This document shows, one piece after another, positions 13,536 to 48,965 of a stretch of DNA of 64,000 nt. Numbering within the stretch: position 1 is the first letter of the stretch; the number at the start of each line of letters is the position of its first letter. The stretch comes from Terebella lapidaria (lineage: Eukaryota > Annelida > Polychaeta > Terebellida > Terebellidae): NCBI GenBank assembly GCA_949152475.1, contig OX424558.1:40106751-40170750 (forward strand), in the 5' to 3' direction. Below the pieces are notes generated by a model. That model was not told the DNA's origin, searched no databases, and saw only the letters and a program-made list of their open reading frames with translations. A program made the translations under genes and the position numbers.

Positions 13536-13854
13536 TGTAACGGTTTTGGGGCGTACCCAAAGGTTTCCCCTAGGTAATTATGTTAGTGTTTTGTGATATT
13601 ATGGTTAAATAACCGTTTATTAAGGTGTATATGTGTTTAAAGGTTCATACGGTTCCGTATTGTTAATGTTTAAAGGGTTTTCCGTCTCGGAACTTAGTAA
13701 TTTATGATGTCGGTAAAGCCGGAGACGGAGCCGGAACCGGAGACGGAACCGGACACGGAGCCGGAACAATGGAGTACAAAAACGTAATGACGTTATTTCC
13801 GGAAGGTCATGTGATCAGCCTCGTTTTCGGTTTAAAAGGTGACGTGTCAGCCAC

Positions 13855-13960
13855 TGATTGGTTCTAGAGTGTTTTTAGAAATCCGGAAAATATCAGTGTT
13901 TTGGCGGACTATGACGTCACAATAGGTTGGTCACGTGACGTGGGTCTCAGGTCTATAAAA
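13855..13960 (+). promoter_or_regulatory. LTR promoter module
   Basis: In order: inverted CCAAT box (attgg, 13,857-13,861), CRE-type TGACGTCA (13,912-13,919), palindromic E-box TCACGTGA (13,931-13,938), TATAAAA (13,954-13,960). Transcription is expected about 25-30 bases after the TATA box, and the element's own poly(A) signal is about 140 bases further. The same order and spacing recurs before the two accessory ORFs. Confidence 0.8.
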
Positions 13961-14102
13961 GCCCCCGTTTCACAGCGGACGGCGGAGTTGGTGTCCTGAC
14001 GTCGACCTGTGCAGACCCCTTCTCCCATAGCAGAGTACTCCCTTGTTCCGGATAGAGTCATCCAGATGATAGCAGTTAAGTCTTCCGACTGTGAACTTGG
14101 AA

Positions 14103-14108
14103 AATAAA
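14103..14108 (+). terminator. LTR poly(A) signal
   Basis: AATAAA; the functional copy for 3' ends is the equivalent in the 3' LTR at 25,255-25,260. A second AATAAA lies at 14,164-14,169. Confidence 0.6.
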
Positions 14109-14929
14109 CATGAAAACTTCAACCGAGTTGTTTTTCCGTGTTCGTTAGGAAACTGGAAGTTATAATAAAGTTAGTTTCCCGGAAAAGACAGTTATACGGA
14201 GTAAAGGGAGATAAGACTACAGTCGGTTAAGACCAAGTTGTAACGACGTCTTAGGGTGATCCAAGAACCCAGATCACCGAGGAAGGAGACGGAGACGGAG
14301 ACGGAGGTGGAATTCAACGGAGCAACTACGGAGGCGGTATCGGACGGAGCAGTTGCAGAGACGGGAACGACGAAGCAGTTGCAGAGGCGGTACCGGACGA
14401 CGGAGTTGCAGAGGCAGTACCTGACGGAGCGGTTGCGGTAACCGGAAGTGGGAACACTTCCGAGATACTCCATTTCAGGTGCGGTACCAAGTTGCAGGGA
14501 GGCGGAGCCAACCGGAGCAGATTGCAGTGCGGCGGAACCTGGCAGAGCGGTTGCAGTATTCGGAAACGGCAACGTTCCCGGATTCTTTATTCCAGGCGCA
14601 GTCGCAGTTTGCAGTAAGACGGAAAACGACGGAGCTGTTGCAGTAAAGCGGTTTCCCGACGGAGCAGTTGCAGTACCCGGAGACGGAAACGCCTCCGGAT
14701 CCTTACTTTACAGGTGCAGTTGCAGATTAGCAGTCGGGCAACGGTTAAGAGGTCCATTCCAGACCACGCTACCAACCTTAGAGACTTCTAGCCGGAGTTC
14801 AACCGTACAGCAGTAGCAGTTTTCCGGAGTTTTACCGTTTCAGCTCCGGTTAAACAACAACTCACCCACCTCCCTAGAAAACAGGTTCATCAAGACGTCA
14901 CAGAAGGGTGCAAACCCGTTACAACTTTT

Positions 14930-14947
14930 TGGTGGCAGCGGTGGGAT
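14930..14947 (+). other. Primer binding site, tRNA-Leu type
   Basis: TGGTGGCAGCGGTGGGAT starts six bases after the LTR. Its complement is the 3' end, including CCA, of animal tRNA-Leu of the AAG type. The leucine assignment rests on my memory of tRNA acceptor ends and should be checked against the host tRNA set. Confidence 0.8.
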
Positions 14948-14957
14948 CATCTGCAGT

Positions 14958-16235
14958 ATGACTACTAGACGGGGCAAATTGGCGGAACAGCAGCTGAAGG
15001 CAGCCGTGTCGGACACGGAGCAGCCTGTAGGAGCAGTAGGAGCTGAGCCGTTGCAGATGCCGGTTGCGGAAAAGGAAGCAGTTCGTCCTGCCGAGCGAAA
15101 GCTGTTGCAGCCGGAAATGCAAAAAGCAGTTGCAGAAGAGCCCCTTCGGGTTCCTCAAGGAGTACAGCCTGCAGAGCAGTTAGCAGAGGCGGAAATGAAC
15201 TTTCCGGACCAGGCTGGCGATCGGGAACCGGATGCGGAACCGGAAGGCGGAGAGAATTTAGTCGACAACCTGACCAGATTATTGGCGACCCAAATGGAGG
15301 TGTTTCAGCAGCACCTGGCAGTAACCGGAAAGCAGCAGCAGGCAGAAGCAGTACAACCACCAGCACCAAGGGCAGGAGTAGCCAGATTAATGACATACGA
15401 CGGAACTGATCCGTGGCCGGAGTATGAGGCTCACCTCCTTGAATACGCTCGGTACTACCGTTGGACAGCAGAGGAAAAGGCGCTGAACTTATGTGTCAGT
15501 TTGAGAGGTAACGCCCGCAGCATACTACTGGATCTGTCCGCGGAGCAGAGACGCAGCTTTGATACGGTTGTGGCGGCATTAAAACAGCAGTTTTGTCCGG
15601 GGGAGAAAACATTTGTTTTCCAGGCAGAATTGCAGTCACGGAAATTGCAGCCGGAGGAGGAGCTGTCCGAGCTGGCCAGAGACATACGGAGCAAGACGCG
15701 GCTAGCTTACCCAAAAGCAGATCCGGCAACAACAGAAGTGCTCATGAAGATGCATTTCTGCAACAGCCTGACTAACCGAGATATGCGGTTGTCGGTATTG
15801 AAAAGCCACCCGGAAACGCTGTCGCAGGCCCTGGCTTTCGCTACCGAGTATGAGAGCATCATGAAGACGGACAACAGCAGACCAGCGGAGCGACACCGGA
15901 CGAGGCAGCTGAACACGGAGCCGGAGTGGAGCCAGCAGGTGAACGAATTGCGGAAGCAAGCCGAGCAGACTCAGCAGCAGTTGGCGGATCTGATGACTCA
16001 GGTCAAGGAAGCGGTTAGCCGGCAGCAGCAGCAGCGCAGTTCCCAAGCGGATTTAGAATGTTTCAACTGTGGCCGGAAAGGGCATTTTGCCCGAGACTGT
16101 AGGCAGCCGAAGCAGCAGCAGCAGCGGCGTCAACCACAACAACAGCAGTCGCCGCGACAACAGCAGCAGCAGCCGCAGCAGCAGCAGCAACAATTGCAGC
16201 AGCCACGACAGCAGCAGCAGCAGCCGGAAAACTAG
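14958..16235 (+). CDS. gag: Gag polyprotein of the gypsy element
   Basis: 425 residues. The ATG lies 34 bases after the LTR and is the first in the frame. The N-terminal 120 residues are Ala/Glu/Gln-rich, then comes an alpha-helical capsid-like region (about 140-310, with a WPEYEAHLLEYARYY stretch and LRGNARSILLDL). A single CCHC zinc knuckle lies at residues 368-381 (C-x2-C-x4-H-x4-C), expected to bind the RNA genome. The C-terminus is a glutamine tract from CAG repeats, ending in TAG. Gag should form the cytoplasmic particle that packages RNA and carries Pol by frameshift fusion. Length and single knuckle are normal for gypsy Gag; the long polyQ tail is unusual. Confidence 0.92.
   Translation: MTTRRGKLAEQQLKAAVSDTEQPVGAVGAEPLQMPVAEKEAVRPAERKLLQPEMQKAVAEEPLRVPQGVQPAEQLAEAEMNFPDQAGDREPDAEPEGGENLVDNLTRLLATQMEVFQQHLAVTGKQQQAEAVQPPAPRAGVARLMTYDGTDPWPEYEAHLLEYARYYRWTAEEKALNLCVSLRGNARSILLDLSAEQRRSFDTVVAALKQQFCPGEKTFVFQAELQSRKLQPEEELSELARDIRSKTRLAYPKADPATTEVLMKMHFCNSLTNRDMRLSVLKSHPETLSQALAFATEYESIMKTDNSRPAERHRTRQLNTEPEWSQQVNELRKQAEQTQQQLADLMTQVKEAVSRQQQQRSSQADLECFNCGRKGHFARDCRQPKQQQQRRQPQQQQSPRQQQQQPQQQQQQLQQPRQQQQQPEN
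16103..16235 (+). promoter_or_regulatory. gag-pol overlap, presumed -1 ribosomal frameshift region
   Basis: The pol frame is -1 relative to gag and is open from just after a TAG at 16,100-16,102, so the frames overlap for 133 bases. In this overlap the CAG repeat encodes Gln in gag and Ala in pol. The last gag codons before TAG read G GAA AAC (16,226-16,232), an A-rich stretch that could allow slippage but is not a canonical X-XXY-YYZ heptamer. Pol has no ATG near its start (the first plausible codon, at 16,298, is GTG), which supports fusion to Gag. Confidence 0.7.
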
Positions 16236-19200
16236 AGCGGGTCGCGGAAAAGGGGAAATCCGGGACCCGGAAGAGAGGACACCCCCATAACCGGCAGGTG
16301 GTTCACGGACCCGGTCCCAGGGGCGAGGTGGGCATGTGTGTGACAGCCAGACTATGCGGAGAGCCAGTAACGCTGATAATCGACACCGGCAGCACTGTCA
16401 CAATGCTCAACCTACAAACCTGGGAACGGATCCGGAAACCCGGAATGAAGCTGAAGCGGTCGCCGATTCGTCTTTCAATGGTTGACGGAAGTAACATACG
16501 GACACATGGCCGGAAAGAACTCCCACTCAACATCGCAGGAGTAGCTGAGACCGTGACGTTCGAGATTGCAGACTGTGAAGACGAAGGAATACTGGGAATG
16601 GATTTCATCCGTTCCCGGATATCCGGCATAAATTTCGACCGAATGACCATGCAGATGGGCAGCCAGGAGGTGTTCCTCACCATGTTCGAGCAGACCAGGG
16701 AGCCGTTTCCGATCAACGCTGTAGCAGATTACCAAATTCCGCCGGAAACGGAACAGCTGATTATAGGACAAGCAGAGAGTGTCCGTGAAGCAGAAGGAGT
16801 ACTAGAAATGCCGCAGGAGCCTACTGAGAAAAGACCTTGGCTGATCGGGAGAACTTTATCCCGGATAAAGCAAGGAACAGTCCCGGTTCGAGTGATCAAC
16901 GTGATGGCAGAGCCGGTAATCATCAAGAAAGGAGCGCAGTTGGCGACGATGACCACCTTAGCAGCCGGTTGCAGTGTTGTGCCGTTGGCGGAGCGGAGCA
17001 GGAAGGTGCAGATTTCCACGGAGTCGGAGGCCGGGCGGAATTGGAGCGGGTACGAGAAGCTGCGGCAGTTAGCAGAGCAGACCCAGGATGCAGTGCCGCG
17101 TCATTTCCGGGAGAGAGTAACCGACCTCCTATTTCGGAATAAGCCGACCTTCAGTAATGATGCCGGAGAACTGGGGCAGACCAACGAGGTACAACATCAG
17201 ATAAACACGGGCAGTCACCGGCCGATTAAGCAGCCAACCAGAAGAATTCCGCCAGACAAGAGAGAGCTGGTGAGCAGTCTGATTCAGGAGATGAAAGACA
17301 AGAACGTCATTGAAGAAAGTAGCAGTCCGTGGGCTTCCCCGATTGTCCTCGTGAAGAAAAAGGATGGGACCACCCGGTTCTGCGTCGATTACCGGCGGTT
17401 AAATGCAGTCACGGAGAAAGATGCTTATCCGTTGCCGAGAATAGACGACACCATAGCAGCCTGTGCAGACGCCAAATGGTTCTCCACTCTCGACCTGACC
17501 AGTGGCTACTGGCAGGTCGGGATGGATGAAGACGCCCGGAAAAAGTCGGCCTTCTGTGTTCCTGGCGGCCTTTATCAGTTCAAAGTGATGAGTTTCGGCT
17601 TGTGCAATGCTCCGGGTACGTTCGAGCGGTTGATGGAGAAGGTGCTAGGCGGTTTGTCCTGGAAGACCTGCCTCATATATCTGGACGACATCATAGTCTA
17701 CAGCATGACCCTGGAGGATCACATCCGTGATCTTCAGGAGGTGTTCAGCAAGCTGAGAGAGGCAGACCTAAAAGTCAAACCGTCAAAATGCAAGTTCTTC
17801 CAGCCGGAGGTGTCCTTCCTAGGTCACATAGTCGGCAGAGACGGTATCCGCACCGACCCGGCAAAAACGGAGGCAGTACGGAAGTGGCGGACACCCACCA
17901 ACCTGACGGAGCTGCGCAGTTTTCTGGGACTTTGCTCCTATTACCGGAAGTTCGTGCCGAAGTTCTCCGAGATTGCAGCGCCGCTGAATCACTTGACGGA
18001 AAAAGGGGTGCCGTTCCGGTGGCAGACGGAGCAAGAACAGGCATTTGCAGAGCTGAAGAACCGCCTAGTATCGGCACCGATATTCGGGTACCCAAGGGAG
18101 CAAGGCCGATATATCCTGGACACGGACGCCAGTGACACCGGGCTGGGAGCAGTACTGTCACAGAAGCAGGGCAACCAGGAGCGGGTGATAACCTACTTGA
18201 GCCGCAGCCTAACCAAAGAAGAACGGAGATACTGTGTCACCCGGAAGGAGCTCCTGGCGGTTGTGTTTGCGGTACAGAAGAATAAGCAGTACTTGCTGGG
18301 ACGACACTTCCTTCTTCGCACAGATCATGGCAGTCTTACCTGGCTTATGAATTTCAAGGAGCCCCAGGGGCAGGTAGCCCGGTGGATTGAGCTCCTGAGT
18401 GAGTTTCATTTCGACATCGAACATCGTCCGGGGCGAATCCATAATAATGCGGATGCCTTGTCCAGATCCCCATGCAGCCAATGCGGAAAAATCGACTGGA
18501 AACAAGCCAAGATAGACGCCTGGAACTACGGAGAAAGGATCCGGCAGACACGAAGTGAAGAAACTCCTCAGCCCAAGCCAAGGAAGGGGGGACGCCGGAA
18601 GCGATCACGGAGATCGGGCGGAGAAGCAGAACTGACGGAGGAAGCAGTCCCAAGGAAGGCGGTTGCAGTAGCGGAGGCAGCAGCGTCCTGGAAGCCGGTT
18701 GCGGTGACGGAGAAAGCAGCGTCCCGGAAGCCGGTTGCGGTTGCGGTGACGGAGAAAGCAGCGTCCTGGAAGCCGGTTGCGGTTGCATTGACGGAGGAAG
18801 CAGTCCCAAGGAAGGCGGTTGCAGTAGCGGAGGCAGCAGCGTCCTGGAAGCCGGTTGCGGTTGCGGTGACGGAGAAAGCAGCGTCCCGGAAGCCGGTTGC
18901 GGTTGCGGTGACGGAGAAAGCAGCGTCCTGGAAGCCGGTTGCGGTTGCAGTGACGGAGGAAGCAGCGTTCCGGAAGCCGGTTGCGGTTGCAGTGACGGAG
19001 AAGGCAGTTCCAGGAAAAGCGGATGCGGTTGCAGAGCAGATTAGGCTGGCGGAAAATGCGGACCAGGATACTGTGCTGGGGCAGAAATATCGACCAGATG
19101 ATTTGCGGAGAATGCAGCAAGCAGAACCTTGGTACCCACTGGTGACGTCGCTGATCGACGGGAGCGGTACAGCTGGCAGTGCAGACTTTTCCAGTATGAG

Positions 19201-20497
19201 CAGCGAGGAGAAAGTGCTGTACGGGATGCGGAAGACCTTGCTGAAAGTCGACGGAGTAGTCTACCGGAAATGGAAAACGGCAGAAGGAACCAGCCGAATG
19301 CAGTTAATAACCCCGAAGGAGCTGAGACAGGAGATTTTCCGTCTGGCCCACCAGAGCCGGACGGGAGGACACCTCGGAAGCAGAAGGATGGCGGCTAGCA
19401 TTCGGAGGCGGTATTTCTGGCCGGCTATGATGCGGGACATAAAGCAGTGGGTGCTGAGCTGTGACGAATGTGCGTCAAGAAGTATGCAGAACTTGAAGCG
19501 ATCTCCGATGCAGAAATACCGGGTTGGAGCGCCCATGGAGAGGGTGGCAATGGACGTGATGGGTCCGTTACCTAAATCCACCCGGGGGAACCGGTACATC
19601 TTAGTAATCGGCGATTACTTCACCAAGTGGGTAGAGGCTTACCCGATGCCGAATCAGGAAGCGGTGACGGTTGCGGACATATTCGTCAACCAGTTTGCAG
19701 CGCGGTACGGTATCCCGATGGAGATACACACCGACCAAGGCAGAAATTTCGAGTCCGACTTGCTGAGAAATGTTTGCAGAATCCTGGGGATTCACAAGAC
19801 ACGGACAACCGCTTTCCGACCTCAGTCGGACGGTTTCATCGAGCGATTCAACCGGACGCTGCAGCAGATCTTGAGCCTGTACGTAAGCGAGCGGCAGACC
19901 AACTGGGATCAGCTAGTTCCGTTGGCGATGGCAGCTTACCGGAGTACCCCGCAGGAGACAACCGGGCAGAGTCCCAACTTGCTGATGCTGGGCAGAGAAG
20001 TCAACACTCCGGTAGAGTTACTGATTGGCAGACCGCCGGGAGAATCAACAGCGGAAGTAACAGAGTATGGCAGTCAGCTCCGGGAGCGACTAGAAGCGGT
20101 ATACAAGGCGGTTCGAGCGAAATCTGGCAGAGAAATGGAACGGCAGAAGAAGCTGTACGACCGGAGGAAGGTCGACAATCAGTTCCAGCCAGGAGACCGA
20201 GTGTGGATGGCGGTCAAAACACGGAAGAAGGGCAAAGCTCCCAAGTTGCAGAGGAAGTGGAGCGGTCCAAAGCTAGTGCTGAGCAGATTTACCGACGTGA
20301 CCTACGAGATTGCAGAGAGTGAAACTCGACAGAAGGTGGTTCACTTCGATTTGCTGAAACCGTATAATGGTGTCAAGCATCCGAGATGGATGAAGCGGAG
20401 AATGGCGGATTCCTGGAGGCAGACGGAGCCGCCGAAGCAGAGTAGTGTTCCGGAGACGGAACAGACGGTCTCTGAGTCGGATACGGACTCGGAGTAA
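16103..20497 (+). CDS. pol: Pol polyprotein: protease, RT, RNase H, integrase
   Basis: Residues are counted from position 16,298. Aspartic protease: active-site DTGS at 29-32, GILGMDF about 96. Reverse transcriptase: YLDD catalytic box at 461-464 (17,678-17,689), preceded by VDYRRLNAVTEKDAYPLPRI. RNase H: DTDAS at 608-612, then TDHGSLTWL and HRPGRIHNNADALSR. A tandem-repeat linker of about 130 residues (about 779-911) separates RNase H and integrase. Integrase: HHCC zinc site (H1018 to C1055-x2-C1058), then catalytic D1086, D1146, E1182 with the retroviral D-D-35-E spacing, and a C-terminal module around KLYDRRK and GDRVW. The frame is uninterrupted. Expected to be made as Gag-Pol by -1 frameshift and cut by its own protease. 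No chromodomain is evident. Confidence 0.93.
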   Translation, partial: AAEAAAAAASTTTTAVAATTAAAAAAAAATIAAATTAAAAAGKLERVAEKGKSGTRKRGHPHNRQVVHGPGPRGEVGMCVTARLCGEPVTLIIDTGSTVTMLNLQTWERIRKPGMKLKRSPIRLSMVDGSNIRTHGRKELPLNIAGVAETVTFEIADCEDEGILGMDFIRSRISGINFDRMTMQMGSQEVFLTMFEQTREPFPINAVADYQIPPETEQLIIGQAESVREAEGVLEMPQEPTEKRPWLIGRTLSRIKQGTVPVRVINVMAEPVIIKKGAQLATMTTLAAGCSVVPLAERSRKVQISTESEAGRNWSGYEKLRQLAEQTQDAVPRHFRERVTDLLFRNKPTFSNDAGELGQTNEVQHQINTGSHRPIKQPTRRIPPDKRELVSSLIQEMKDKNVIEESSSPWASPIVLVKKKDGTTRFCVDYRRLNAVTEKDAYPLPRIDDTIAACADAKWFSTLDLTSGYWQVGMDEDARKKSAFCVPGGLYQFKVMSFGLCNAPGTFERLMEKVLGGLSWKTCLIYLDDIIVYSMTLEDHIRDLQEVFSKLREADLKVKPSKCKFFQPEVSFLGHIVGRDGIRTDPAKTEAVRKWRTPTNLTELRSFLGLCSYYRKFVPKFSEIAAPLNHLTEKGVPFRWQTEQEQAFAELKNRLVSAPIFGYPREQGRYILDTDASDTGLGAVLSQKQGNQERVITYLSRSLTKEERRYCVTRKELLAVVFAVQKNKQYLLGRHFLLRTDHGSLTWLMNFKEPQGQVARWIELLSEFHFDIEHRPGRIHNNADALSRSPCSQCGKIDWKQAKIDAWNYGERIRQTRSEETPQPKPRKGGRRKRSRRSGGEAELTEEAVPRKAVAVAEAAASWKPVAVTEKAASRKPVAVAVTEKAASWKPVAVALTEEAVPRKAVAVAEAAASWKPVAVAVTEKAASRKPVAVAVTEKAASWKPVAVAVTEEAAFRKPVAVAVTEKAVPGKADAVAEQIRLAENADQDTVLGQKYRPDDLRRMQQAEPWYPLVTSLIDGSGTAGSADFSSMSSEEKVLYGMRKTLLKVDGVVYRKWKTAEGTSRMQLITPKELRQEIFRLAHQSRTGGHLGSRRMAASIRRRYFWPAMMRDIKQWVLSCDECASRSMQNLKRSPMQKYRVGAPMERVAMDVMGPLPKSTRGNRYILVIGDYFTKWVEAYPMPNQEAVTVADIFVNQFAARYGIPMEIHTDQGRNFESDLLRNVCRILGIHKTRTTAFRPQSDGFIERFNRTLQQILSLYVSERQTNWDQLVPLAMAAYRSTPQETTGQSPNLLMLGREVNTPVELLIGRPPGESTAEVTEYGSQLRERLEAVYKAVRAKSGREMERQKKLYDRRKVDNQFQPGDRVWMAVKTRKKGKAPKLQRKWSGPKLVLSRFTDVTYEIAESETRQKVVHFDLLKPYNGVKHPRWMKRRMADSWRQTEPPKQSSVPETEQTVSESDTDSE
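18632..19035 (+). repeat. In-frame minisatellite inside pol
   Basis: About ten 36-42-bp units encode variants of TEKAASRKPVAVA. A higher-order block (LTEEAVPRKAVAVAEAAASW onward) occurs twice. Units keep the reading frame. It forms a flexible Ala/Val/Lys-rich linker between RNase H and integrase and should vary in copy number between element copies. Confidence 0.9.
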
Positions 20498-21246
20498 AGC
20501 CGCAGAGGACGCAGAATTATGAGAAGACGGAGTGAGCTGTAGAGCAGGAGAAGGAGATAGCTGAGACCCTGGTAAAACGTTGAGTTCCGGCAGAGAGCGA
20601 CCGCAAGAAGTTGGAACAGTGAGCAAGTGCTGGTTCCGGAAACAGGGCGGAGAAAGGAATCAGAGCGGAAAGCGGTGCAGAGACCGGATAGAGACATCCT
20701 AGAGGTTCTGACTGGGTTGAGCACATAGTCAACCAGTCCAGGGTAGCGGCCAGGGGCCCAGAAGAACCTGGGTTAGCGGTCTAGTATCTCCAGAGAAGCA
20801 GCTACACGTCTTCCGTATTCAGAGAATTAAGACGGAAAAGTTTTCCGGCTGTAGACAACCAACCGGAGTTTCCACTTAGCAGAGACAGCAAACCGGCTGC
20901 AGATTGACAAGAAACGGAGAAACATCACCCCAGATAGGAAGGCGCCTCCTTCTGGACAGAATGTATGCAGTTTCCAGTGTCGACAAGCAGTAATACCAAT
21001 GAGCAGATATGCAGTGGACGAAGCAGTACAGATGGCGGAAACGCCCAACTTGCAGTCTAGATGTTCGTCTGAGAGGCAGATTCAACTGGCTGAGACTCTA
21101 TTCAACCCTCCTGATGGCAGAGATACTTCAAAATTGCAGATACTTCGCTCGGAGAAGCAGTTGAAAGGGAGCCGGAAAAACCCGGAGAAGCCGGTTGAGC
21201 CGGAGACGGACACCTCTCGGTTAACGGTTGAGTTTTTGCATAATTG
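20498..21246 (+). other. pol to ORF3 intergenic region
   Basis: 750 bp without a convincing gene. It continues the gcag/cgga vocabulary of the element. A 99-codon frame starts with ATG at 20,999 and ends at 21,298, inside the next promoter, and has no recognisable motif. The region could be a pol 3' UTR or hold splice sites for subgenomic RNA, which I cannot demonstrate. Confidence 0.5.
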
Positions 21247-21316
21247 TGACGTCACTCCTGAGGCAGCCAATCAGCGTGGAGCTTTTCAAATCACGTGAGC
21301 AGAAAGGGTATATAAG
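21247..21316 (+). promoter_or_regulatory. Internal promoter module before ORF3
   Basis: TGACGTCA (21,247-21,254), CCAAT (21,267-21,271), TCACGTGA (21,291-21,298), TATATAAG (21,309-21,316). The elements match those of the LTR promoter, and the E-box-to-TATA gap is 10 bases against 15 in the LTR. ORF3 begins about 230 bases downstream. Strong by pattern; activity is untested. Confidence 0.7.
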
Positions 21317-21549
21317 GGCCTTGAAATCGGGCTCTGACAGCAGTTGGAGAGCAGACCTCGAGCTGTGCACATCGCAGACAAAGTTTGGCGGAATCGAATC
21401 AAGTCCAGCATTTTCCGGCAGCAACAGATTTTGCAGTGAAAAACGACTAAGTGTTTCCCGGAAGACCACCAGTCCGGAGAAGCGGTGCAGAAGCGGTGCA
21501 GTAAAAGCGGTGCAGTAGATCGACAATTTCAGTTTCCCGGCCTTCCGGA

Positions 21550-22341
21550 ATGGCCTACTCGGCGTTCCTTGATAGACAAGATCGCGGCCGGAGCAGAGAT
21601 TGGGCAACCCCGCAGCCACTGGATTATAGCCGGCTGTGTAAGCGGTGTGACCGGATGTTTGAGAGTGCGAGGGACCGGAGACGGCATGTGTGCCCAGCCC
21701 AGAGATTTCATTGCTGTTTGTGTGCCTTCTATGGCAACCGGGCGAACGACCTTAGGAGGCATCTCCGGGAGATGCACGGGTGGAAGTACCCTTCCGGGAA
21801 CCGTCCTCCTCAGGACGAGGCCACCCTCAACCATGTGGGAACCTTTGATTCGGCCTGGCGGGGAACAGCAACGCAGTCCCGGCATAGGCGCTTCCGGCGA
21901 TTCTGCACCCGGTCACCAAGGGAGAATACAGTTCCGGAAACTTATGCGGACCAGCTTCCGTTTGGCCCTGACTGGGATGCCGGAGCAGCCGCCCCCATCG
22001 GACAACCGGAGCAGTTAGATCTCCCGGAATGGGTTCCGGATCCACAGGGCTGTCTCCGGGCAGCCGACGACGCTCCTCCGGAAAGCTGGGATCAGGAGAT
22101 GGAGCTAATTGCAGAGGCGGTCAGAGCAGTTATGCCGGATCAAGCAGACGATTGGGAGCCGGAACTGGTGACATCAAAGAAACCCGAAGAGGAAGATCAG
22201 CCGGTGGAAGACTGGGAGGCGGAGATCCGAGTGTGGGAATATAGACCACCTTCTCCCACTTCGGAGCCGGAGACGGATGAGTCGGAGTATGAGACGGCAG
22301 ATGAGGAATCCTGGACGGAAGCGAAGGCAGTGTGGCAGTAG
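21550..22341 (+). CDS. Accessory ORF3: C2H2 zinc-finger protein
   Basis: 263 residues from an ATG following the internal promoter. Near the N-terminus are two cysteine/histidine modules: residues 30-48 (C-x2-C-x12-H-x-C, a degenerate finger) and residues 55-76 (C-x2-C-x12-H-x4-H, a standard C2H2 finger). The rest is acidic and Pro-rich (about 130-260) with repeated WEPE and DWEAE-like words, resembling an activation or interaction region. No transmembrane segment or signal peptide, so it is not an envelope protein although it is in the env position. Likely nuclear and nucleic-acid binding (inference). The two-finger N-terminus is shared with ORF4, suggesting they are paralogues. Confidence 0.75.
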   Translation: MAYSAFLDRQDRGRSRDWATPQPLDYSRLCKRCDRMFESARDRRRHVCPAQRFHCCLCAFYGNRANDLRRHLREMHGWKYPSGNRPPQDEATLNHVGTFDSAWRGTATQSRHRRFRRFCTRSPRENTVPETYADQLPFGPDWDAGAAAPIGQPEQLDLPEWVPDPQGCLRAADDAPPESWDQEMELIAEAVRAVMPDQADDWEPELVTSKKPEEEDQPVEDWEAEIRVWEYRPPSPTSEPETDESEYETADEESWTEAKAVWQ

Positions 22342-22404
22342 ACGGAGGCGGTTGGCAGTTTGGCGGAGACGGAAGAAGCGGTGGCAGTTAGCAGCAACAA
22401 CACG

Positions 22405-22429
22405 AAAAAAAAAAAAAAAAAAAAAAAAA
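22405..22429 (+). repeat. A25 homopolymer between ORF3 and ORF4
   Basis: Twenty-five consecutive adenines lie 63 bases after the ORF3 stop. No AATAAA precedes it at the usual distance. It could be a captured poly(A) tail from a reverse-transcribed subgenomic RNA, or simple slippage. Confidence 0.85.
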
Positions 22430-22479
22430 TATTATTTATCCAAGAAGACCACCAGGAGGAGTTGCAGTTTGCTGAGCAG

Positions 22480-22530
22480 CCAATCATCAAGCAGATAAGC
22501 CAGTCACGTGACTTCCAGAGACTATAAAAG
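22480..22530 (+). promoter_or_regulatory. Internal promoter module before ORF4
   Basis: CCAAT (22,480-22,484), TCACGTGA (22,504-22,511), TATAAAAG (22,523-22,530), with 11 bases between E-box and TATA. ORF4 starts 77 bases after the TATA box. The flanking agcagccaatca is also close to the ORF3 version. There is no TGACGTCA here. Confidence 0.7.
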
Positions 22531-22607
22531 GGGCAGTTAGCTGTTACCGGATGCAGAAGGCAGTTTGCTGTAGCTGAGTCAACATCGACACAAAGCAGAG
22601 AATCAGA

Positions 22608-24422
22608 ATGCCGAAAGTAAAGACAACACCCCGCAAGCCCCGCCCTCACCGGTGTGGAGACTGCAACCTAGAGTTCAAGAGCAAGCACACGTTGCTCCGG
22701 CATGTCACGGAGCAGCACACAAGTGAAGTCACCGTCTTCGCCTGTCCGCAATGTGACCATTGGAGCAGACGGAAAGAGGGAACACAGAAGCATCTGCAGT
22801 CCCGGCACGCAATGGACGCAAACCCGATTCGACTGAGGGTGGGCAGAGAGCAGTTTGAGGAGAAAAGCCTCCGGTCCAAGATGACCCCACGGAAAAGCAA
22901 GAAGCCGGTAACACGGCTTGACCAGTTGTCGGATACGGAGTCGGAGTCGGGAGGTTCGGTTTCGTCCCGGACCCGGTATCGTTCCGGTACCCAGTCGGTG
23001 GCCACACTAGCAGCCGACGTTTCGTCCACGGAGGCGGAGAGCAGTTCGGAAGAGGAAGCGGAGCTGAAAATCATGGCAAGTGAAGACGAGTTGCAGGAAC
23101 CAGGAGACCCGAAGCCGGTTAAGCCGCCTGTGACCCGGAGTTCTTCCCGGAACACCTCCCGGAAAAACAGCCCTGACCCATCTCGAGGTACCGGAGCCGA
23201 TCGAGACCGCGGAAAGAAGCGGAGTCGCAGCCGTTCGCCGGATAAATCCGGACGCCATCAACGCCGAGAATATAGGAAGGAGAGCCCGGAGCGAGCCAAG
23301 GACCGAGGCGGAGAACGTGGTCGAGAGGAGAAACGACACACCCCACCCAAGTCTTCCGGAGGCAGCGTCAAGGGAAAAGGCAAGGGGGTGTATGACTACA
23401 AGTTCCGGCTGTTGGAGGAAGGTTCCAGCGGAGCAACGGCAGAAGTGGGAGTGGCGGACATTGCGGAAATGCAGAGCCGAGACGATGAGGAAGACCTTTT
23501 CCGGAGTCCACCTCCGAGAACAACTAGCAGTGGCAGAGCAGTGAGCAGTGTGATTGTCCGGCCCGGAGGCGGAGCAGAAATCAGATCCAGCGGCCGAGCC
23601 GATAGCAGAGCAGATAGCCGAGCGGACAGCAGACCCATTGGCAGATCAGGAGGCAGACCGGAGACCAAAACGGAAGGCGGAACCCGGAGCAGAGCTGGCA
23701 GTGAGACGGAGACCCGAGGATCCACGGAGCGAACTTTGCCGGCAACCATTCAAGCAGTAGCCGGAAGCAGAACCAGTTCAGCGGCTTGGGATGACGGAAT
23801 GGAGTCTTCCGCGTCTGAACGAAGCCATGCGGACGTGCAGAGAGCCCGGAGGAGTATCCTGGTAGACCAAGCCAGAGCTACACCCGGAATCCTGTCTCCG
23901 GTGGAGACCCGACCTCGACAGTCTTCCAGTGAGCGGTCCGGAAGGAGCCAAGTCCGAGCACCAACCCAGAGTCCACCCTACACATTCTACCCGTTTGGCG
24001 GTCCTTCAACTCAACCGTGTCCGTCACATTGTTTCCCGGTGAATATTGGGGGACGGAGCGCTTCCGTCTTTGCGCCCGCAGTCCCGGAGCACGCCAGATA
24101 CTATGCAGTACGTTGGGGACCGGAGCAGTGGGGGCCAGCCGAGATGAGAGACTCCGGCGTCTACGTGGAGATCATGGAGCAAAGAGAGTCACCGTTTGGT
24201 CTCGTCCCGACCCGTCAAATCGTCCGGATTCCAGATTGGTCCATCCGAGACGAACGCCTCAGGAATGGGTTCTACGTCCCGCCCCAGTGGAGCCTCCATG
24301 ATCCGGATCTTCTCCCGGTTGATGCCAGAGGAACAAGCTTCGGACGACCGTTGGTACCACAGACCTTTCCACCGCGTCCGCCGTCGGGGAGCAGTTCGCG
24401 CCGTGATACTGGTGGGCAGTAG
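22608..24422 (+). CDS. Accessory ORF4: C2H2 zinc-finger, SR-rich protein
   Basis: 604 residues from the first ATG after the internal promoter. Two tandem C2H2 fingers with standard spacing: C16-x2-C19-x12-H32-x4-H37 and C46-x2-C49-x12-H62-x4-H67. Then a Ser/Glu-rich acidic stretch (about 100-165), a basic Arg/Ser region (about 175-255, with SRSRSPDKSGR), a long Arg/Ala/Asp/Ser low-complexity segment and a Pro/aromatic C-terminal domain (about 450-590). Looks like a nuclear DNA- or RNA-binding regulator. No integrase, protease or envelope feature. Finger spacing and position match ORF3, so the two probably arose by duplication together with their promoters. I know no standard gypsy protein of this type. 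Confidence 0.78.
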   Translation: MPKVKTTPRKPRPHRCGDCNLEFKSKHTLLRHVTEQHTSEVTVFACPQCDHWSRRKEGTQKHLQSRHAMDANPIRLRVGREQFEEKSLRSKMTPRKSKKPVTRLDQLSDTESESGGSVSSRTRYRSGTQSVATLAADVSSTEAESSSEEEAELKIMASEDELQEPGDPKPVKPPVTRSSSRNTSRKNSPDPSRGTGADRDRGKKRSRSRSPDKSGRHQRREYRKESPERAKDRGGERGREEKRHTPPKSSGGSVKGKGKGVYDYKFRLLEEGSSGATAEVGVADIAEMQSRDDEEDLFRSPPPRTTSSGRAVSSVIVRPGGGAEIRSSGRADSRADSRADSRPIGRSGGRPETKTEGGTRSRAGSETETRGSTERTLPATIQAVAGSRTSSAAWDDGMESSASERSHADVQRARRSILVDQARATPGILSPVETRPRQSSSERSGRSQVRAPTQSPPYTFYPFGGPSTQPCPSHCFPVNIGGRSASVFAPAVPEHARYYAVRWGPEQWGPAEMRDSGVYVEIMEQRESPFGLVPTRQIVRIPDWSIRDERLRNGFYVPPQWSLHDPDLLPVDARGTSFGRPLVPQTFPPRPPSGSSSRRDTGGQ

Positions 24423-24674
24423 TCGTCGCAAGTCGTCGCAAGTCAAGTCGGCGCAAGGAGAAGAAAGAAGAACCGTTTCCCGGATTCTAGTATAATTAAG
24501 AGTTAAAAAGTGGGAAACGGAACAAGCAAGATATCCGGGTACAGTGACGGTAAACTAGTTAAGAGATACCAGTACCCGGATCACGGAGACAAGTTGTGTT
24601 TGATTTTACGGACAGTTTAACGGTTGACAATTTGTATATATGTGATATTGTTCTGTTCGGGACGAACAGAGTCT
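24423..24674 (+). other. Region between ORF4 and polypurine tract
   Basis: Includes gtcgtcgcaa direct repeats just after the ORF4 stop and a small hairpin ctgttcgggacgaacag (24,651-24,667) just before the polypurine tract. No gene. Confidence 0.5.
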
Positions 24675-24687
24675 AAGGAAGGGGGAG
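24675..24687 (+). other. Polypurine tract
   Basis: aaggaagggggag abuts the 3' LTR exactly, the expected plus-strand primer site. Confidence 0.9.
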
Positions 24688-26075
24688 TGTAATGGTTTTG
24701 GGGCGTACCCAAAGGTTTCCCCTAGGTAATTATGTTAGTGTTTTGTGATATTATGGTTAAATAACCGTTTATTAAGGTGTATATGTGTTTAAAGGTTCAT
24801 ACGGTTCCGTATTGTTAATGTTTAAAGGGTTTTCCGTCTCGGAACTTAGTAATTTATGATGTCGGTAAAGCCGGAGACGGAGCCGGAACCGGAGACGGAA
24901 CCGGACACGGAGCCGGAACAATGGAGTACAAAAACGTAATGACGTTATTTCCGGAAGGTCATGTGATCAGCCTCGTTTTCGGTTTAAAAGGTGACGTGTC
25001 AGCCACTGATTGGTTCTAGAGTGTTTTTAGAAATCCGGAAAATATCAGTGTTTTGGCGGACTATGACGTCACAATAGGTTGGTCACGTGACGTGGGTCTC
25101 AGGTCTATAAAAGCCCCCGTTTCACAGCGGACGGCGGAGTTGGTGTCCTGACGTCGACCTGTGCAGACCCCTTCTCCCATAGCAGAGTACTCCCTTGTTC
25201 CGGATAGAGTCATCCAGATGATAGCAGTTAAGTCTTCCGACTGTGAACTTGGAAAATAAACATGAAAACTTCAACCGAGTTGTTTTTCCGTGTTCGTTAG
25301 GGAACTGGAAGTTATAATAAAGTTAGTTTCCCGGAAAAGACAGTTATACGGAGTAAAGGGAGATAAGACTACAGTCGGTTAAGACCAAGTTGTAACGACG
25401 TCTTAGGGTGATCCAAGAACCCAGATCACCGAGGAAGGAGACGGAGACGGAGACGGAGGTGGAATTCAACGGAGCAACTACGGAGGCGGTATCGGACGGA
25501 GCAGTTGCAGAGACGGGAACGACGAAGCAGTTGCAGAGGCGGTACCGGACGACGGAGTTGCAGAGGCAGTACCTGACGGAGCGGTTGCGGTAACTGGAAG
25601 TGGGAACACTTCCGAGATACTCCATTTCAGGTGCGGTACCAAGTTGCAGGGAGGCGGAGCCAACCGGAGCAGATTGCAGTGCGGCGGAACCTGGCAGAGC
25701 GGTTGCAGTATTCGGAAACGGCAACGTTCCCGGATTCTTTATTCCAGGCGCAGTCGCAGTTTGCAGTAAGACGGAAAACGACGGAGCTGTTGCAGTAAAG
25801 CGGTTTCCCGACGGAGCAGTTGCAGTACCCGGAGACGGAAACGCCTCCGGATCCTTACTTTACAGGTGCAGTTGCAGATTAGCAGTCGGGCAACGGTTAA
25901 GAGGTCCATTCCAGACCACGCTACCAACCTTAGAGACTTCTAGCCGGAGTTCAACCGTACAGCAGTAGCAGTTTTCCGGAGTTTTACCGTTTCAGCTCTG
26001 GTTAAACAACAACTCACCCACCTCCCTAGAAAACAGGTTCATCAAGACGTCACAGAAGGGTGCAAACCCGTTACA
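24688..26075 (+). repeat. 3' LTR of the gypsy element
   Basis: 1,388 bp, same length as the 5' LTR. The differences I found are a C-to-T at the sixth base (which breaks the end palindrome on this side), one A-to-G and two C-to-T changes, with no indel. Promoter and AATAAA (25,255-25,260) are intact. All element transcripts, genomic and subgenomic, would end here. Confidence 0.95.
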
Positions 26076-38648: not shown

Positions 38649-41600
38649 CTAAAAATAGAAATATACCCCAATTTCCCGAAGGAAATTGAGGATTTTATAA
38701 ATATTAATATCGTTAAAAACATCATGCATTGACTGACACTCATAAAACAAACGACGACTGTCAGCCAAATCTTGACAATGTACCAGGACATGTTCAACGG
38801 TCAGCCACTCTCGACAGGGCACACACACAGGGGCCTCCTCCCCACGGAGCAGGTAACCCTGAGTAAGGTATGTATGCCCTATACGAGCCCGTGACATGAC
38901 CAGTTGATCACGCCTGGACATTTCGTTTATTGGGGTACAACAACCAATCGTTGGTTTGACTTTGTGTAATTTGTTATCAACCTGCTCATCCCAGAATGAC
39001 TGCCATTCTGCGTACAAGTACGTGTGGATGAGCAGCTTGAAATTAGAATGTGGCACCCTGGAAAATGTGACGTCCAGATCAAGAGCTGCCCTGGCAGCCT
39101 TGTCGGCACGTTCATTCCCAGGAATGTCCACATGACTGGGTACCCAACAAAATACCACAACTTTATGCATTTGAAAAGTACGTTGATGTTCAGTTAAAAT
39201 ATCCAAAAGTAGAGGATGGTCAATATTACGATTCTCTATGGCTTGAAGGGCTGATAGAGAATCTGAACAAATGACAAAACCCAGTTCTCCGGACCGGCGG
39301 ATGTGGGACAGTGCTAACAGTATTGCTTTCAACTCCGCTGTGTACACTGAACACACATCAGGGAGACGTTGTTTGTATGTTCTCCCTGAGGTGACAGCGG
39401 CACAGCCTACTTTATTACCATCCTTAGAACCATCAGTATACATAAACTTAAAATTTGGATAATTTAACTGAACATCACTAAAACTACTGTGAAAATCCAA
39501 AGGGTTGATGGTAGACTTCTTCCCAATCCTGAGAGAGAAGTCAGTTATGGGAGTTTTCAATTCCCATGGTGGAACCTTTGAAATTTTTGACTCGGCTATT
39601 GTGTTCAAGTCAATGTTTAAATCCGCCAATAGGTGTTTCATGCGAATACCAAAGGTTGGTATTGCATTTGGCCTGGATTCAAACAGACGAACACACTTAG
39701 CTTTGAAAACAACATTATGGGCTGGATTGTTCGGTAGAGACTTCAGCTTGATGGTATACTGAAGTGAGAGTTTTTCCCTCCTACGATAAAGAGAGGGTTC
39801 GTTGGCCTCAACATACAGGCTCTCCATGGGAGAGGTTCTGAATGCACCGAGACACAAACGCAACCCCTGGTTATGGATAGTATCCAAAGCCTTTATGTAG
39901 GAGGGTCTGGCTGAGCCATAAACTATCGAACCATAGTCGAGCTTTGACCGGACGAGTGCTCTGTATAAACGGAGCAGCACGTCACGATCAGCTCCCCAAT
40001 CCATATGTGATACTACCTTGAGAAGGTTCAGAGCCTTGTGACACTTTGTTTTAATGTACTTGATGTGGGGTATGAATGATAGTTTCCTATCAAAGAATAC
40101 CCCCAAAAACTTGAACTGTTCCACCAAGGGAATAACTGTACCATTTAACTTTAATTCTGGTTCAGGGTGCAACTTGCGCAAATTGCAGAAATGCATGCAG
40201 ACAGTTTTCGTTTTGGAGAAGCGAAAACCGTTCCGGTCTGCCCATTTCTCAATTCGCGCAAGGCACTGCTGTAATTGACGTTCTATTGTATGCATTTGTT
40301 TTGATGAATAGCAAACAAGGAAGTCATCCACATAGAGTGAAGCATTCACTCCAGGGGACAAAATCCTTACTATGCTATTGATTTTGATACTGAACAGGGT
40401 TACAGACAAGATGCTGCCTTGAGGGACACCCTCCTCCTGATCAAACATATCGGAGAATGAAGTGCCCACCCTGACAGTAAATTTACGATTGGATAAAAAC
40501 TGAGAAATGAAGGAAGGCATACGACCACGAAGTCCTGCCTCATGGAGGTCCTTCAGGATACCGTGTTTCCACGTCGTGTCATATGCCTTCTCCAAATCGA
40601 AAAATATTGCCACCATGTGCTGGCGATTAATAAACGACTCCCGTACAGCAGTTTCCAGTCGAATAATCTGATCAGTAGTTGATCTATTATTCCGGAAACT
40701 CCTCTGGAATGGAGTGATAACTTTATTAGATTCTAGATAAAATACTAATCTAGTATTGACCATTCTTTCCATTGTTTTGCAAACACAGCTGGTCAAAGCA
40801 ATAGGACGATAATTCGTTGGGTTGGTAGGATCCTTCCCAGGCTTAGCAACCGGAATGATTGTAGCCTGTCTCCAACAACCAGGGAATGCCCCACCAACCC
40901 AAATTTTATTGAATATATTTAAAAGAGTCTGAAGTGCAGGCTCTGGTAAGTGTTTCAGAATCTGATAGTGAATCTCATCGGGCCCAGTCGCAGTGTCATG
41001 GGCCCGTTTGAGAGACTCCATCAGTTCTGACATTTTAAAAGGACAATTATAGTACTCCGTATTGTTGGATCTGAAATTGAGAGGTTTCTGTTCCTCCTTC
41101 ACTTTATAGGACTGGAAACAATCTGTATAATGAGAACTGGATGAATTATGGGATACGGTTGAACCCAGAACATCAGCAATATCCTTGTTATCGATGATGT
41201 CCCGGTTGTTCAACCGTAACTGTTTTACACCAGTAAATTGACGTTTGCCTGAAATTTTCTGGACCATGTCCCATACTTTCTTGATAGGCGTTCGATTATT
41301 GAGCTTGGAGACATACTGTCTCCAGCTATTTTTCATTGCTTTCCTCATAACTTTCCTGGTAAGAGCATATTGATGTTTATAAGCCATTAAATTTGCTTGG
41401 GTGGGGTGTTTACGAAAGATCCGGAGAGCTCTCTTCCTAGCAGAAAGAGCCTCCTGACAATCTTCGTTCCACCATGGCTTGTTCTTTTTATTAGAAAAAG
41501 CAGGGGTTTTGGGTATTGTCATTTCAGCAATGAAATGCAATACAGATGTAAATATCTCCATTGGGTCATCCTGAGTGTTTTCAAACAAGGTTGGCTGCAA

Positions 41601-42338
41601 TTCTAAATTGCAGATTCTTTTAAATTCTGACCAATCTGCCCTAGCAAGATTCCATCTCGGGATCCGATCAGGAACATAATGATCTTGCATGGACAGAAAA
41701 GTGGGAAAATGATCACTACCACACAGGTCATCACAGACCTGCCAAGTGAAATCATTAAACAACGAAGGGTGACCCAATGAGATATCAATTGCCGAAAATG
41801 TTCCGTATGCAGGATGTGTATATGTTGGAGTACCATCATTCCAAATACATAGTTCATTATCACTTATAAATTGCTCAACTACCCTGCCCTTAGCATTGAT
41901 ATCATCACAACCCCACAGATGATTATGGGCATTGAAATCTCCAACAATGATATAGGGTGAAGGTAGCTGTGCAATTAGGTCGTTCAACTCCTCCAAGACT
42001 AGGCTATAGCTTGGGGGAATATACACAGAACATAAAGTGAAGTGCTTCTGAATTGTGAGGGACACAGCAACAGCCTGCAAAGTGCTGTTAAGCTGTATGT
42101 CCCTGTGTGTAATAGTATTACTGACTAGAATGGAAGTGCCACCAACTGCACGATCATCAGCTGATGTGGCATAATGATGGTAGGATGTATATTTCCTGTA
42201 ATTAAAACTATTCTGAGGTTTTAAAAAGGTTTCTTGCAAACAAATAGCAGCAGGGCTAAAATCCTGCATGAACATTTTAATTTCATCACTATTGTGACGA
42301 AAGCCCCTACAATTCCAACTAATCAAATTATAATTCAT
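38649..42338 (-). CDS. LINE ORF2: endonuclease, reverse transcriptase, RNase H
   Basis: 1,229 residues, uninterrupted. N-terminal AP-endonuclease-like domain (about 1-220): ISWNCRG, LQETF, VGDFNAH, SDHFP. RT (about 480-760): KPGKDPTNPTNYRPIALTS, FDLEKAYDT, GVPQGSILS and the catalytic YVDD near residue 665. RNase H (about 960-1,090): YTDGSKDGN, TAELKAI, CSDSLSAL, VPSHVDIPGNERAD. C-terminal Cys/His cluster (CVPC...EHVLVHC). It nicks target DNA and copies the element RNA there. The start ATG overlaps the end of the full-length ORF1 frame as ATGA (42,338-42,335), suggesting termination-reinitiation. Confidence 0.93.
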   Translation of the reverse strand: MNYNLISWNCRGFRHNSDEIKMFMQDFSPAAICLQETFLKPQNSFNYRKYTSYHHYATSADDRAVGGTSILVSNTITHRDIQLNSTLQAVAVSLTIQKHFTLCSVYIPPSYSLVLEELNDLIAQLPSPYIIVGDFNAHNHLWGCDDINAKGRVVEQFISDNELCIWNDGTPTYTHPAYGTFSAIDISLGHPSLFNDFTWQVCDDLCGSDHFPTFLSMQDHYVPDRIPRWNLARADWSEFKRICNLELQPTLFENTQDDPMEIFTSVLHFIAEMTIPKTPAFSNKKNKPWWNEDCQEALSARKRALRIFRKHPTQANLMAYKHQYALTRKVMRKAMKNSWRQYVSKLNNRTPIKKVWDMVQKISGKRQFTGVKQLRLNNRDIIDNKDIADVLGSTVSHNSSSSHYTDCFQSYKVKEEQKPLNFRSNNTEYYNCPFKMSELMESLKRAHDTATGPDEIHYQILKHLPEPALQTLLNIFNKIWVGGAFPGCWRQATIIPVAKPGKDPTNPTNYRPIALTSCVCKTMERMVNTRLVFYLESNKVITPFQRSFRNNRSTTDQIIRLETAVRESFINRQHMVAIFFDLEKAYDTTWKHGILKDLHEAGLRGRMPSFISQFLSNRKFTVRVGTSFSDMFDQEEGVPQGSILSVTLFSIKINSIVRILSPGVNASLYVDDFLVCYSSKQMHTIERQLQQCLARIEKWADRNGFRFSKTKTVCMHFCNLRKLHPEPELKLNGTVIPLVEQFKFLGVFFDRKLSFIPHIKYIKTKCHKALNLLKVVSHMDWGADRDVLLRLYRALVRSKLDYGSIVYGSARPSYIKALDTIHNQGLRLCLGAFRTSPMESLYVEANEPSLYRRREKLSLQYTIKLKSLPNNPAHNVVFKAKCVRLFESRPNAIPTFGIRMKHLLADLNIDLNTIAESKISKVPPWELKTPITDFSLRIGKKSTINPLDFHSSFSDVQLNYPNFKFMYTDGSKDGNKVGCAAVTSGRTYKQRLPDVCSVYTAELKAILLALSHIRRSGELGFVICSDSLSALQAIENRNIDHPLLLDILTEHQRTFQMHKVVVFCWVPSHVDIPGNERADKAARAALDLDVTFSRVPHSNFKLLIHTYLYAEWQSFWDEQVDNKLHKVKPTIGCCTPINEMSRRDQLVMSRARIGHTYLTQGYLLRGEEAPVCVPCREWLTVEHVLVHCQDLADSRRLFYECQSMHDVFNDINIYKILNFLREIGVYFYF

Positions 42339-48049: not shown

Positions 48050-48965
48050 CCAGGTCACTGGTTGATTTCAAAGTCAAGAAAATATTCAGCATATATAACA
48101 TATGTTAAGCTGTAAATTCAATAATCAGACAGATATTAGCAATTTTGTGCTGTGGCCTTGAAAATGAAGGGGCAAAGGTCAAATTCAAGGTCATCAAAAT
48201 ATTCATTGTATATCATTTTCTATATCACGTCCACAATTGATTCCCAAGCCATACAGTCAATAGAGGAGCAAGATATGAGCCAGTTTGTCCTTGGACCTTG
48301 GAAATGAGGTCAGAGGTCAAATTCAAGGTCACGAGAATATTCAGCATATATCATTTCCTATATGTCCACAATTGATTCCTAAGCTGTAAAATCGATAATA
48401 AGTGAGATATTACCCATTTTGTCCTTTGACCTTGAAAATGAGGTCAAAGGTCAAATTCAAGGTCATGACAATAATCTGCATATATCATTTCCTATATGTT
48501 CATAATTGATTCCTAAGCTTTAAAGTCGATAACAAGCGAGATATTAGTCACTTTACCCTGTGACCTTGAAAATGAGGTCGAAGGTCAAATTCAAGGTCAT
48601 CAGAATATTCAGCATATATCATTTCCTAAATGTCCACAATTGATTCCTAAGCTGTAGAGTCGATAATAAGCAAGATATAAACCAGTTTGTGCTCTGACCT
48701 TGAAACTGAGGTCAGAGATCAAATTCAAGGTCACGAGAATATTCAGCATATATCATTTCCTATATGTCCACAATTAATTCCTAAGCTGTAGAGTCGATAG
48801 TAAGCGAGATATAAGCCATTTTGTGCTCTGACCTTGAAACTGAGGTCAGAGGTCAAATTCAAGGTCACGAGAATATTCAGCATATATCATTTCCTATGTG
48901 TCCACAATTGATTCCTAGTCTCTAATCTCAATATTAAGTGAGATATTAGGCATAATGTGTCTCAT
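48050..48965 (+). repeat. 134-bp minisatellite rich in AGGTCA half sites
   Basis: Six to seven units with a period of 134 bp, judged from gaccttgaaa starts at 48,428, 48,562 and 48,696. Each has tgaccttgaa, a gaggtcaaaggtcaaat stretch and ttcaaggtca. The rest of the unit (catatatcatttcctatatg through gattcctaagctg) is also conserved. Stray units are at 11,065-11,110 and 11,815-11,935. Confidence 0.9.

Follow-up and report, generated by a model that had tools for sequence, protein, structure and literature searches.

A Ty3/gypsy retrotransposon of Terebella lapidaria with two zinc-finger genes in the env position and predicted internal promoters

What takes the place of env in a Ty3/gypsy retrotransposon that has none, and how would such genes be expressed? 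This question is raised by a 64-kb stretch of the genome of the annelid Terebella lapidaria (64,000 nucleotides of contig OX424558.1; hereafter the window), which bears a complete Ty3/gypsy-type retrotransposon with long terminal repeats (LTRs) at 13536–26075. Between pol and the 3′ LTR of this element, an earlier note had described two extra uninterrupted open reading frames (ORFs) of 263 and 604 codons, here called ORF3 and ORF4. Their coordinates and frames are confirmed by our analysis, and the gypsy-type element with two zinc-finger genes in the env position turns out to be a multi-copy one whose two genes are under purifying selection. The reading toward which we lean slightly is that of a complex gypsy element with two regulatory genes in the env position, each of which would be transcribed from its own LTR-like internal TATA promoter—P3 for ORF3 and P4 for ORF4.

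The element is a young and abundant Ty3/gypsy LTR retrotransposon. Its LTRs of ~1388 bp each bear TG..CA ends, show 4 mismatches over 1389 aligned bases, and are accompanied by a polypurine tract and a primer-binding-site-like sequence, which we take to fit the 3′ end of a eukaryotic tRNA-Leu. The Pfam domains of the 1399-aa pol frame follow the Ty3/gypsy order of protease, reverse transcriptase (RT), RNase H, and integrase. AT repeats flank the element on both outer sides; hence, a target duplication cannot be fixed. Scans of the window for tRNA genes and Rfam families gave no match. Between its RNase H and integrase parts, pol contains a 42-bp tandem array of ~9 copies (18633–19034) that codes for a recurring peptide.

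Zinc-finger proteins in place of env

In ORF3 (aa 30–78), a degenerate unit C-x2-C-x12-H-x-C is followed by one canonical C-x2-C-x12-H-x4-H finger, and in ORF4 (aa 14–68) the canonical form occurs twice; a six-frame pattern scan agrees with the fingers as originally described, i.e., one perfect and one degenerate in ORF3 and two perfect in ORF4. The wider pattern C-x2-C-x12-H-x3-5-[HC] matches four times in the six frames of the entire window, and three of these matches lie within ORF3 and ORF4. Both proteins thus contain units of the C2H2 type (C-x2-C-x12-H-x3-5-H), with all Pfam matches below the curated cut-offs. The 604-codon frame exceeds the longest stop-free run (325) in all 2000 shuffles of the region between pol and the LTR, and a longest run of at least 263 was reached in 4 of these. 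An errantivirus-type env was considered as the third ORF and rejected, as no hydrophobic segment is found and C2H2 fingers stand in its place: the Kyte–Doolittle mean is at most 0.81 in every 19-residue stretch of ORF3 and ORF4—in line with the membrane segments already reported as absent—and no signal-peptide program was run.

Beyond the fingers, the two proteins are of different composition. The finger part of ORF3 (aa 1–85) is basic (+9.8) and its tail (aa 136–263) is acidic, with a net charge of −30 (37 D/E, 7 K/R); the length of this tail differs among copies, mostly in frame. ORF4 continues with a basic Ser/Arg-rich (SR-rich) middle and a Pro-rich C-terminal part. In the Protein Data Bank (PDB), the best match of ORF4 aa 1–80 is a CTCF chain (8ssq; 1.5e-17 summed over the whole multi-finger chain, 3.2e-06 for the single best stretch, presumably CTCF fingers 6–7), and PRDM9 and Helios chains as well as tramtrack (2drp, E 0.0044) come next; ORF3 also matches CTCF best (0.0044). 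Such matches appear as finger likeness and are no proof of descent. ORF4 shares the x4 spacing of the His residues and a similar linker with solved CTCF structures. However, CTCF carries an eleven-finger array, and ORF4 has two fingers only and no other CTCF feature; membership was hence rejected and is not claimed here. Single-sequence AlphaFold models of ORF3 and ORF4 were unusable (mean pLDDT 42 and 39).

Judged by this composition, ORF3 with its fingers and acidic tail looks like a transactivator and is the better candidate for an activator; chromatin or RNA could be the target of ORF4 with its fingers and SR-rich region. Alternatively, the proteins might not be transcription factors at all, and their fingers would bind element RNA or host proteins for packaging, nuclear export, or escape from silencing. 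The SR-rich basic middle of ORF4 and the presence of just two fingers per protein speak for such a role, as does sORF1 of the Drosophila MDG1 group, a predicted helix-turn-helix protein with a likely early function (PMC11952523). However, the acidic tail of ORF3 suits activation, and it is DNA-binding CTCF chains that the ORF4 fingers match best in the PDB. For DNA binding by two fingers, tramtrack serves as a precedent. We regard a role outside transcription as possible, albeit not probable.

Searches for homologues reveal little about the origin of these proteins. ORF4 was compared with ~5.8 billion proteins; of the 7991 candidates scored, none matched at E 0.001. For its C-terminal part, 224 candidates gave no match at E 1 either. 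For ORF3, one match was found among 456 candidates: P0001, a protein of 177 aa encoded on an 868-bp ENA contig, which is 93% identical over 71%, shows a 10-residue in-frame gap relative to ORF3, and is uninformative on the origin of ORF3 because it is too close. No viral contigs combining pol, ORF3, and ORF4 and no bacterial or archaeal contigs with pol were found.

Copies and purifying selection

It is conceivable that the two frames are a host-gene stretch present in this copy alone, or functionless junk; the lack of an outside homologue of ORF4 among the candidates scored would agree with this. The copies in the genome and the strong purifying selection on them, however, refute this explanation, which we consider most improbable. 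Among the best-scoring copies, to which the genome lists of ORF4 and RT refer, ORF4 is found in at least 73 (of 2925 first-look candidates; 98–100% identical, 7 with a stop) and RT in at least 107 (of 11206 candidates; all 99–100% identical, none with stops). The P4 core has 452 genome matches at ≤2 mismatches, and a reversed control pattern has none.

An alignment of the window copy with 47 other copies (48 rows) was analyzed; all of these stem from the ORF4 list and hence carry ORF4 by construction. ORF3 is present in 46 of the 46 covered other copies (L043 is not covered). ORF4 extends over at least 604 aa in 43 of the 48 rows—in one of them without its stop—and ends early in 5, and of the 47 covered rows, ORF3 is open for 233–270 aa in 44 and stops prematurely in the other 3. 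The mean pairwise difference amounts to 1.1% for ORF4 and 2.6% for the first 600 bases of ORF3 (maximum 8.6%). Starting from RT, at least 24 of the 107 listed matches are followed by an ORF4 match 5.07–5.38 kb downstream. On contigs C1–C4, for which the exact P4 matches seem to be listed in full, such a match lies 4.1–5.3 kb downstream in 17 of 39 RT matches; one of the remaining 22 has a listed ORF4 match (C2:59996319). Four further copies were fetched from these 22, and three of them bear the ORF4 start (97.3–98.3% identity) together with a slightly changed P4. Copies without the ORFs or with neutrally decaying ones, named by the earlier note as evidence that would speak against its proposal, are thus generally not seen, apart from one ORF-deleted copy among the four specially checked.

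ORF3 and ORF4 are under purifying selection. Counting distinct changes relative to the window copy under the observed mutation spectrum, omega is 0.16 for ORF4 (N 61, S 156, p 6e-38) with 0.04 for its fingers, and 0.37 for ORF3 aa 1–230 (N 69, S 72, p 3e-9) with 0.16 for its fingers. For comparison, RT (17000–18400) yields 0.19 (N 18, S 40) in 18 of 20 fetched copies; in the other two, the fetched stretch contained no match. The choice of the copies did not involve ORF3. Among its 44 rows of at least 230 aa, 487 of 946 pairs lie above a dS of 0.08 with a mean dN/dS of 0.27, and the six most divergent pairs (dS 0.40) show 0.14–0.17; relative to the window copy, 15 copies have a dS above 0.04, and 14 of them show a dN/dS of 0.20–0.26.

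Over ORF3 aa 1–160, more than 8 differences from the window copy are seen in 7 of 46 copies; their dN/dS values are 0.12–0.25, and their ORF4 differs by just 1.5–2.4%. In these seven (L014, L015, L016, L017, L018, L019, and L045), ORF3 is more diverged from the window copy than the neighbouring parts are. Mosaic exchange between element lineages is likely for these copies; seemingly, several older ORF3 lineages exist, all of them constrained, and have been exchanged between copies.

Predicted internal promoters and nested transcripts

The internal promoters P3 and P4, which the earlier note overlooked, are strongly supported as predictions from sequence motifs. LTR, P3, and P4 have a module plan in common: the E-box TCACGTGA is located 18–23 bp 5′ of TATAWAAG, joined by CCAAT and/or a cAMP response element (CRE). 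The LTR and P3 share the CRE TGACGTCAC; P3 and P4 share GCAGCCAATCA and also agree in register, with CCAAT 42/43 bp and TCACGTGA 18/19 bp before TATA. On the + strand of the element, TATAWAAR and TCACGTGA each occur four times only—in the two LTR promoters, P3, and P4 (Table 1). From TATA to ATG, the distance is 241 bp for ORF3 and 85 bp for ORF4, and the first ATG after TATA+30 is that of ORF3 in 46 of 47 covered rows and that of ORF4 in 48 of 48. The upstream edge of the entire unit at ~21247 is formed by the first P3 motif; at 20999, where it had previously been placed to start, no feature was found.

How exceptional are these modules? Two TCACGTGA–TATA modules are observed between the LTRs, versus none in 3000 dinucleotide shuffles (one in 3000 with the shorter CACGTG), and the remaining 51.5 kb of the window contain none despite 16 TATAWAAR on both strands. 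The pairwise likeness scores of the promoters (64 for P3–P4, 47 for LTR–P3, and 48 for LTR–P4) were reached neither in any of 1000 shuffles nor in any of 892 other windows of the element. Masking the named motifs is a severe test, as masked letters cost points; even so, the likeness of LTR and P3 stays significant (0 of 1000 shuffles). Across the alignment, P3 retains TATAWAAG in all 47 covered rows (37 TATATAAG, 10 TATAAAAG), TCACGTGA in 47, CCAATCA in 46, and the CRE in 45, and P4 retains CCAATCA in 48 of 48 rows and TCACGTGA and TATAAAAG in 47 each. The poly(A) run that separates ORF3 from P4 possibly represents a tail once captured, or it might keep the DNA ahead of P4 poor in nucleosomes.

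On the + strand of the window copy, AATAAA is found in the LTRs only. The arrangement predicts nested transcripts that would share one 3′ end in the 3′ LTR in the style of foamy viruses. A different origin of the messages has to be weighed: ORF3 and ORF4 could be real accessory genes made from spliced or read-through LTR transcripts, and the internal TATA modules would be by-products or of minor importance. The sense-oriented extra ORFs of the LTR elements considered here are described as served by LTR transcripts or splicing (PMC5408684, PMC7264820, PMC11952523), typically by spliced messages (PMC5408684), and env-like genes are driven by the 5′ LTR promoter (PMC7264820). Acceptor-like sites, defined as 9 of 12 pyrimidines plus YAG and sought in 20498–22607, exist at 20822 and 20959 only, 728 and 591 nt before ORF3. 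However, an MAGGTRAG donor is absent from the element, and GTRAGT occurs once, at 18399 inside pol (weaker donors were not scored); moreover, this explanation leaves aside that a complete LTR-like module precedes each of the two ATGs at a suitable distance. We consider it unlikely.

The earlier note had proposed duplication of a captured regulator gene, and ORF3 and ORF4 could indeed have arisen by tandem duplication of one such host regulator together with its promoter. The two proteins have the same N-terminal finger layout and a weak finger similarity, and the motifs of P3 and P4 agree in their spacing. Yet ORF3 and ORF4 align over the fingers only (26% identity over 54 aa, E 0.004 in a single comparison) with no significant similarity beyond, the likeness of P3 and P4 falls below significance once the motifs are masked whereas that of LTR and P3 does not, and no source gene was found among the candidates scored. 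Duplication is hence rather doubtful.

Several observations weigh against transcription of two selected regulatory genes from their own promoters. Regarding the promoters, P4 bears no CRE, and masking of the motifs removes the significance of the likeness for P3–P4 (200 of 1000 shuffles) and LTR–P4 (203 of 1000). The promoter motifs do not clearly exceed the surrounding noncoding DNA in conservation (distinct changes per kb: P3 69, ORF3 leader 100, spacer 127, P4 plus leader 114, tail 94); the family is too young for this comparison to decide. Two of the 48 rows contain an AATAAA between 21339 and 24687. Regarding the genes, choosing the copies by ORF4 protein score biases the ORF4 ratio downward, one copy (L033) with its ORF3 tail out of frame has a dN/dS of 0.86, and codon usage relative to gag–pol does not separate ORF3 from other frames (and ORF4 hardly). 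Two short fingers alone specify little DNA. Finally, the fourth of the fetched copies lacks ~21303–23540, i.e., the P3 TATA, ORF3, P4, and the ORF4 fingers. It retains the CRE, CCAAT, and E-box of P3 and a pol frame open over 1452 aa; therefore, the genes are not needed in cis. They may act in trans.

In this deleted copy (L073, 1–1781), the junction lies just after the P3 E-box, and 8 bases align to both sides, which suggests a deletion by template switching at a short repeat.

Proposed regulation and known systems

How the element might work with two regulators and three promoters is a reasoned proposal. The E-box TCACGTGA is bound by bHLH-ZIP factors, the CRE by CREB/ATF, and CCAAT by NF-Y. 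As LTR motifs are common to both internal promoters, one set of host factors could fire all three promoters—LTR, P3, and P4. Three nested RNAs ending in the 3′ LTR would result: the genome, the ORF3 mRNA, and the ORF4 mRNA. ORF3, as a presumably nuclear protein with two fingers and an acidic tail, would then activate the element promoters in trans, similar to Tas of foamy viruses. ORF4 might act at the same DNA or on element RNA; countering silencing, or helping with splicing and export, would be examples. Taken further, the element could have evolved by itself a three-promoter circuit, in which the two zinc-finger regulators act in trans on all copies and intact copies drive deleted ones; this extension is tentative, and we do not hold it to be probable.

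Foamy viruses offer the closest model of such a logic. Their internal promoter, placed ahead of regulatory genes close to the 3′ end, is active at a basal level and supplies Tas, which in turn stimulates LTR and internal promoter alike (PMC7390438). In the present element, P3 and P4 are predicted to take a corresponding place. In contrast, the present element has the Ty3/gypsy pol order, no env, two predicted internal promoters, and putative C2H2 regulators; moreover, the foamy internal promoter shows little sequence relatedness to the LTR (PMC7390438), whereas the three promoter modules found here share motifs in register.

Among LTR retrotransposons, individual traits recur. Juno, Vesta, and TelKA of bdelloid rotifers are gypsy-like elements with non-env ORFs 3′ of pol, but their captured ORF3 is of the GDSL, DEDDy, coiled-coil, or transmembrane type, and the words "zinc" and "promoter" are absent from the main text of that paper (PMC5408684). 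The plant elements Retand and Grande have a long region between pol and LTR with extra ORFs and an accessory protein predicted to bind DNA, and Grande gene23 has its own promoter; they differ in being plant elements, in the antisense orientation, and in a TRP28 domain instead of C2H2 fingers. The Drosophila MDG1 group (412 and kin) belongs to the gypsy group and has two accessory ORFs, sORF1 and sORF2, which, however, encode small helix-turn-helix and transmembrane proteins, lie mostly 5′ of gag, and are thought to depend on the primary start site (PMC11952523). Among the titles and opening abstract lines listed from the open-licence PMC literature (Repbase was not searched), none concerned a gypsy element whose accessory genes encode C2H2 proteins or that has internal promoters in the sense direction.

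Table 1. Features of the Ty3/gypsy-type element, in positions of the window
Feature	Position	Strand	Details
5′ LTR	13536–14923	+	ends TGTAACGG...CCGTTACA; CRE 13912, E-box TCACGTGA 13931, TATAAAAG 13954, AATAAA 14103 and 14164
Primer-binding-site-like TGGTGGCAGCGGTGGGAT	14930–14947	+	from sequence
gag, 425 aa, one zinc knuckle	14958–16235	+	PF00098, 3.2e-07
pol: protease, RT, RNase H, integrase	16298–20497	+	Pfam; in the −1 frame with respect to gag, open upstream as far as 16103
P3, predicted internal promoter	21247–21316	+	CRE TGACGTCAC 21247, GCAGCCAATCA (CCAAT 21267), TCACGTGA 21291, TATATAAG 21309
ORF3, 263 aa	21550–22341	+	uninterrupted; between pol and 3′ LTR
A25 tract	22405–22429	+	between ORF3 and P4, ~95 bp before P4 TATA; longest A-run 17–45 in 48 rows
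P4, predicted internal promoter	22476–22530	+	GCAGCCAATCA (CCAAT 22480), TCACGTGA 22504, TATAAAAG 22523
ORF4, 604 aa	22608–24422	+	uninterrupted; between pol and 3′ LTR
Polypurine tract AAGGAAGGGGGAG	24675–24687	+	from sequence
3′ LTR	24688–26075	+	CRE 25064, TCACGTGA 25083, TATAAAAG 25106, AATAAA 25255 and 25316

Elsewhere, the window contains a non-LTR retrotransposon with open frames on the − strand (38649–43624). Its ORF2 (1229 aa) comprises endonuclease, RT, and RNase H; its ORF1, upstream and 350 aa long, shows CCHC-like motifs by eye and no Pfam match. A 134-bp satellite of 6.3 copies is located at 48106–48953, and an RT-like fragment at 53948–54568 (Pfam RVT_1 0.0031, below cut-off), which we take to be possibly Penelope-like.

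Regulatory genes, second promoters, and feedback are generally attributed to vertebrate retroviruses, among them foamy viruses and lentiviruses. If the proposal is true, an env-less gypsy element with two selected regulators and three matching promoters would represent an independent origin of this logic of retroviral complexity. The many young copies make the family testable by RNA mapping and reporter assays, and the element could show how retroelements acquire DNA-binding proteins and evade silencing.

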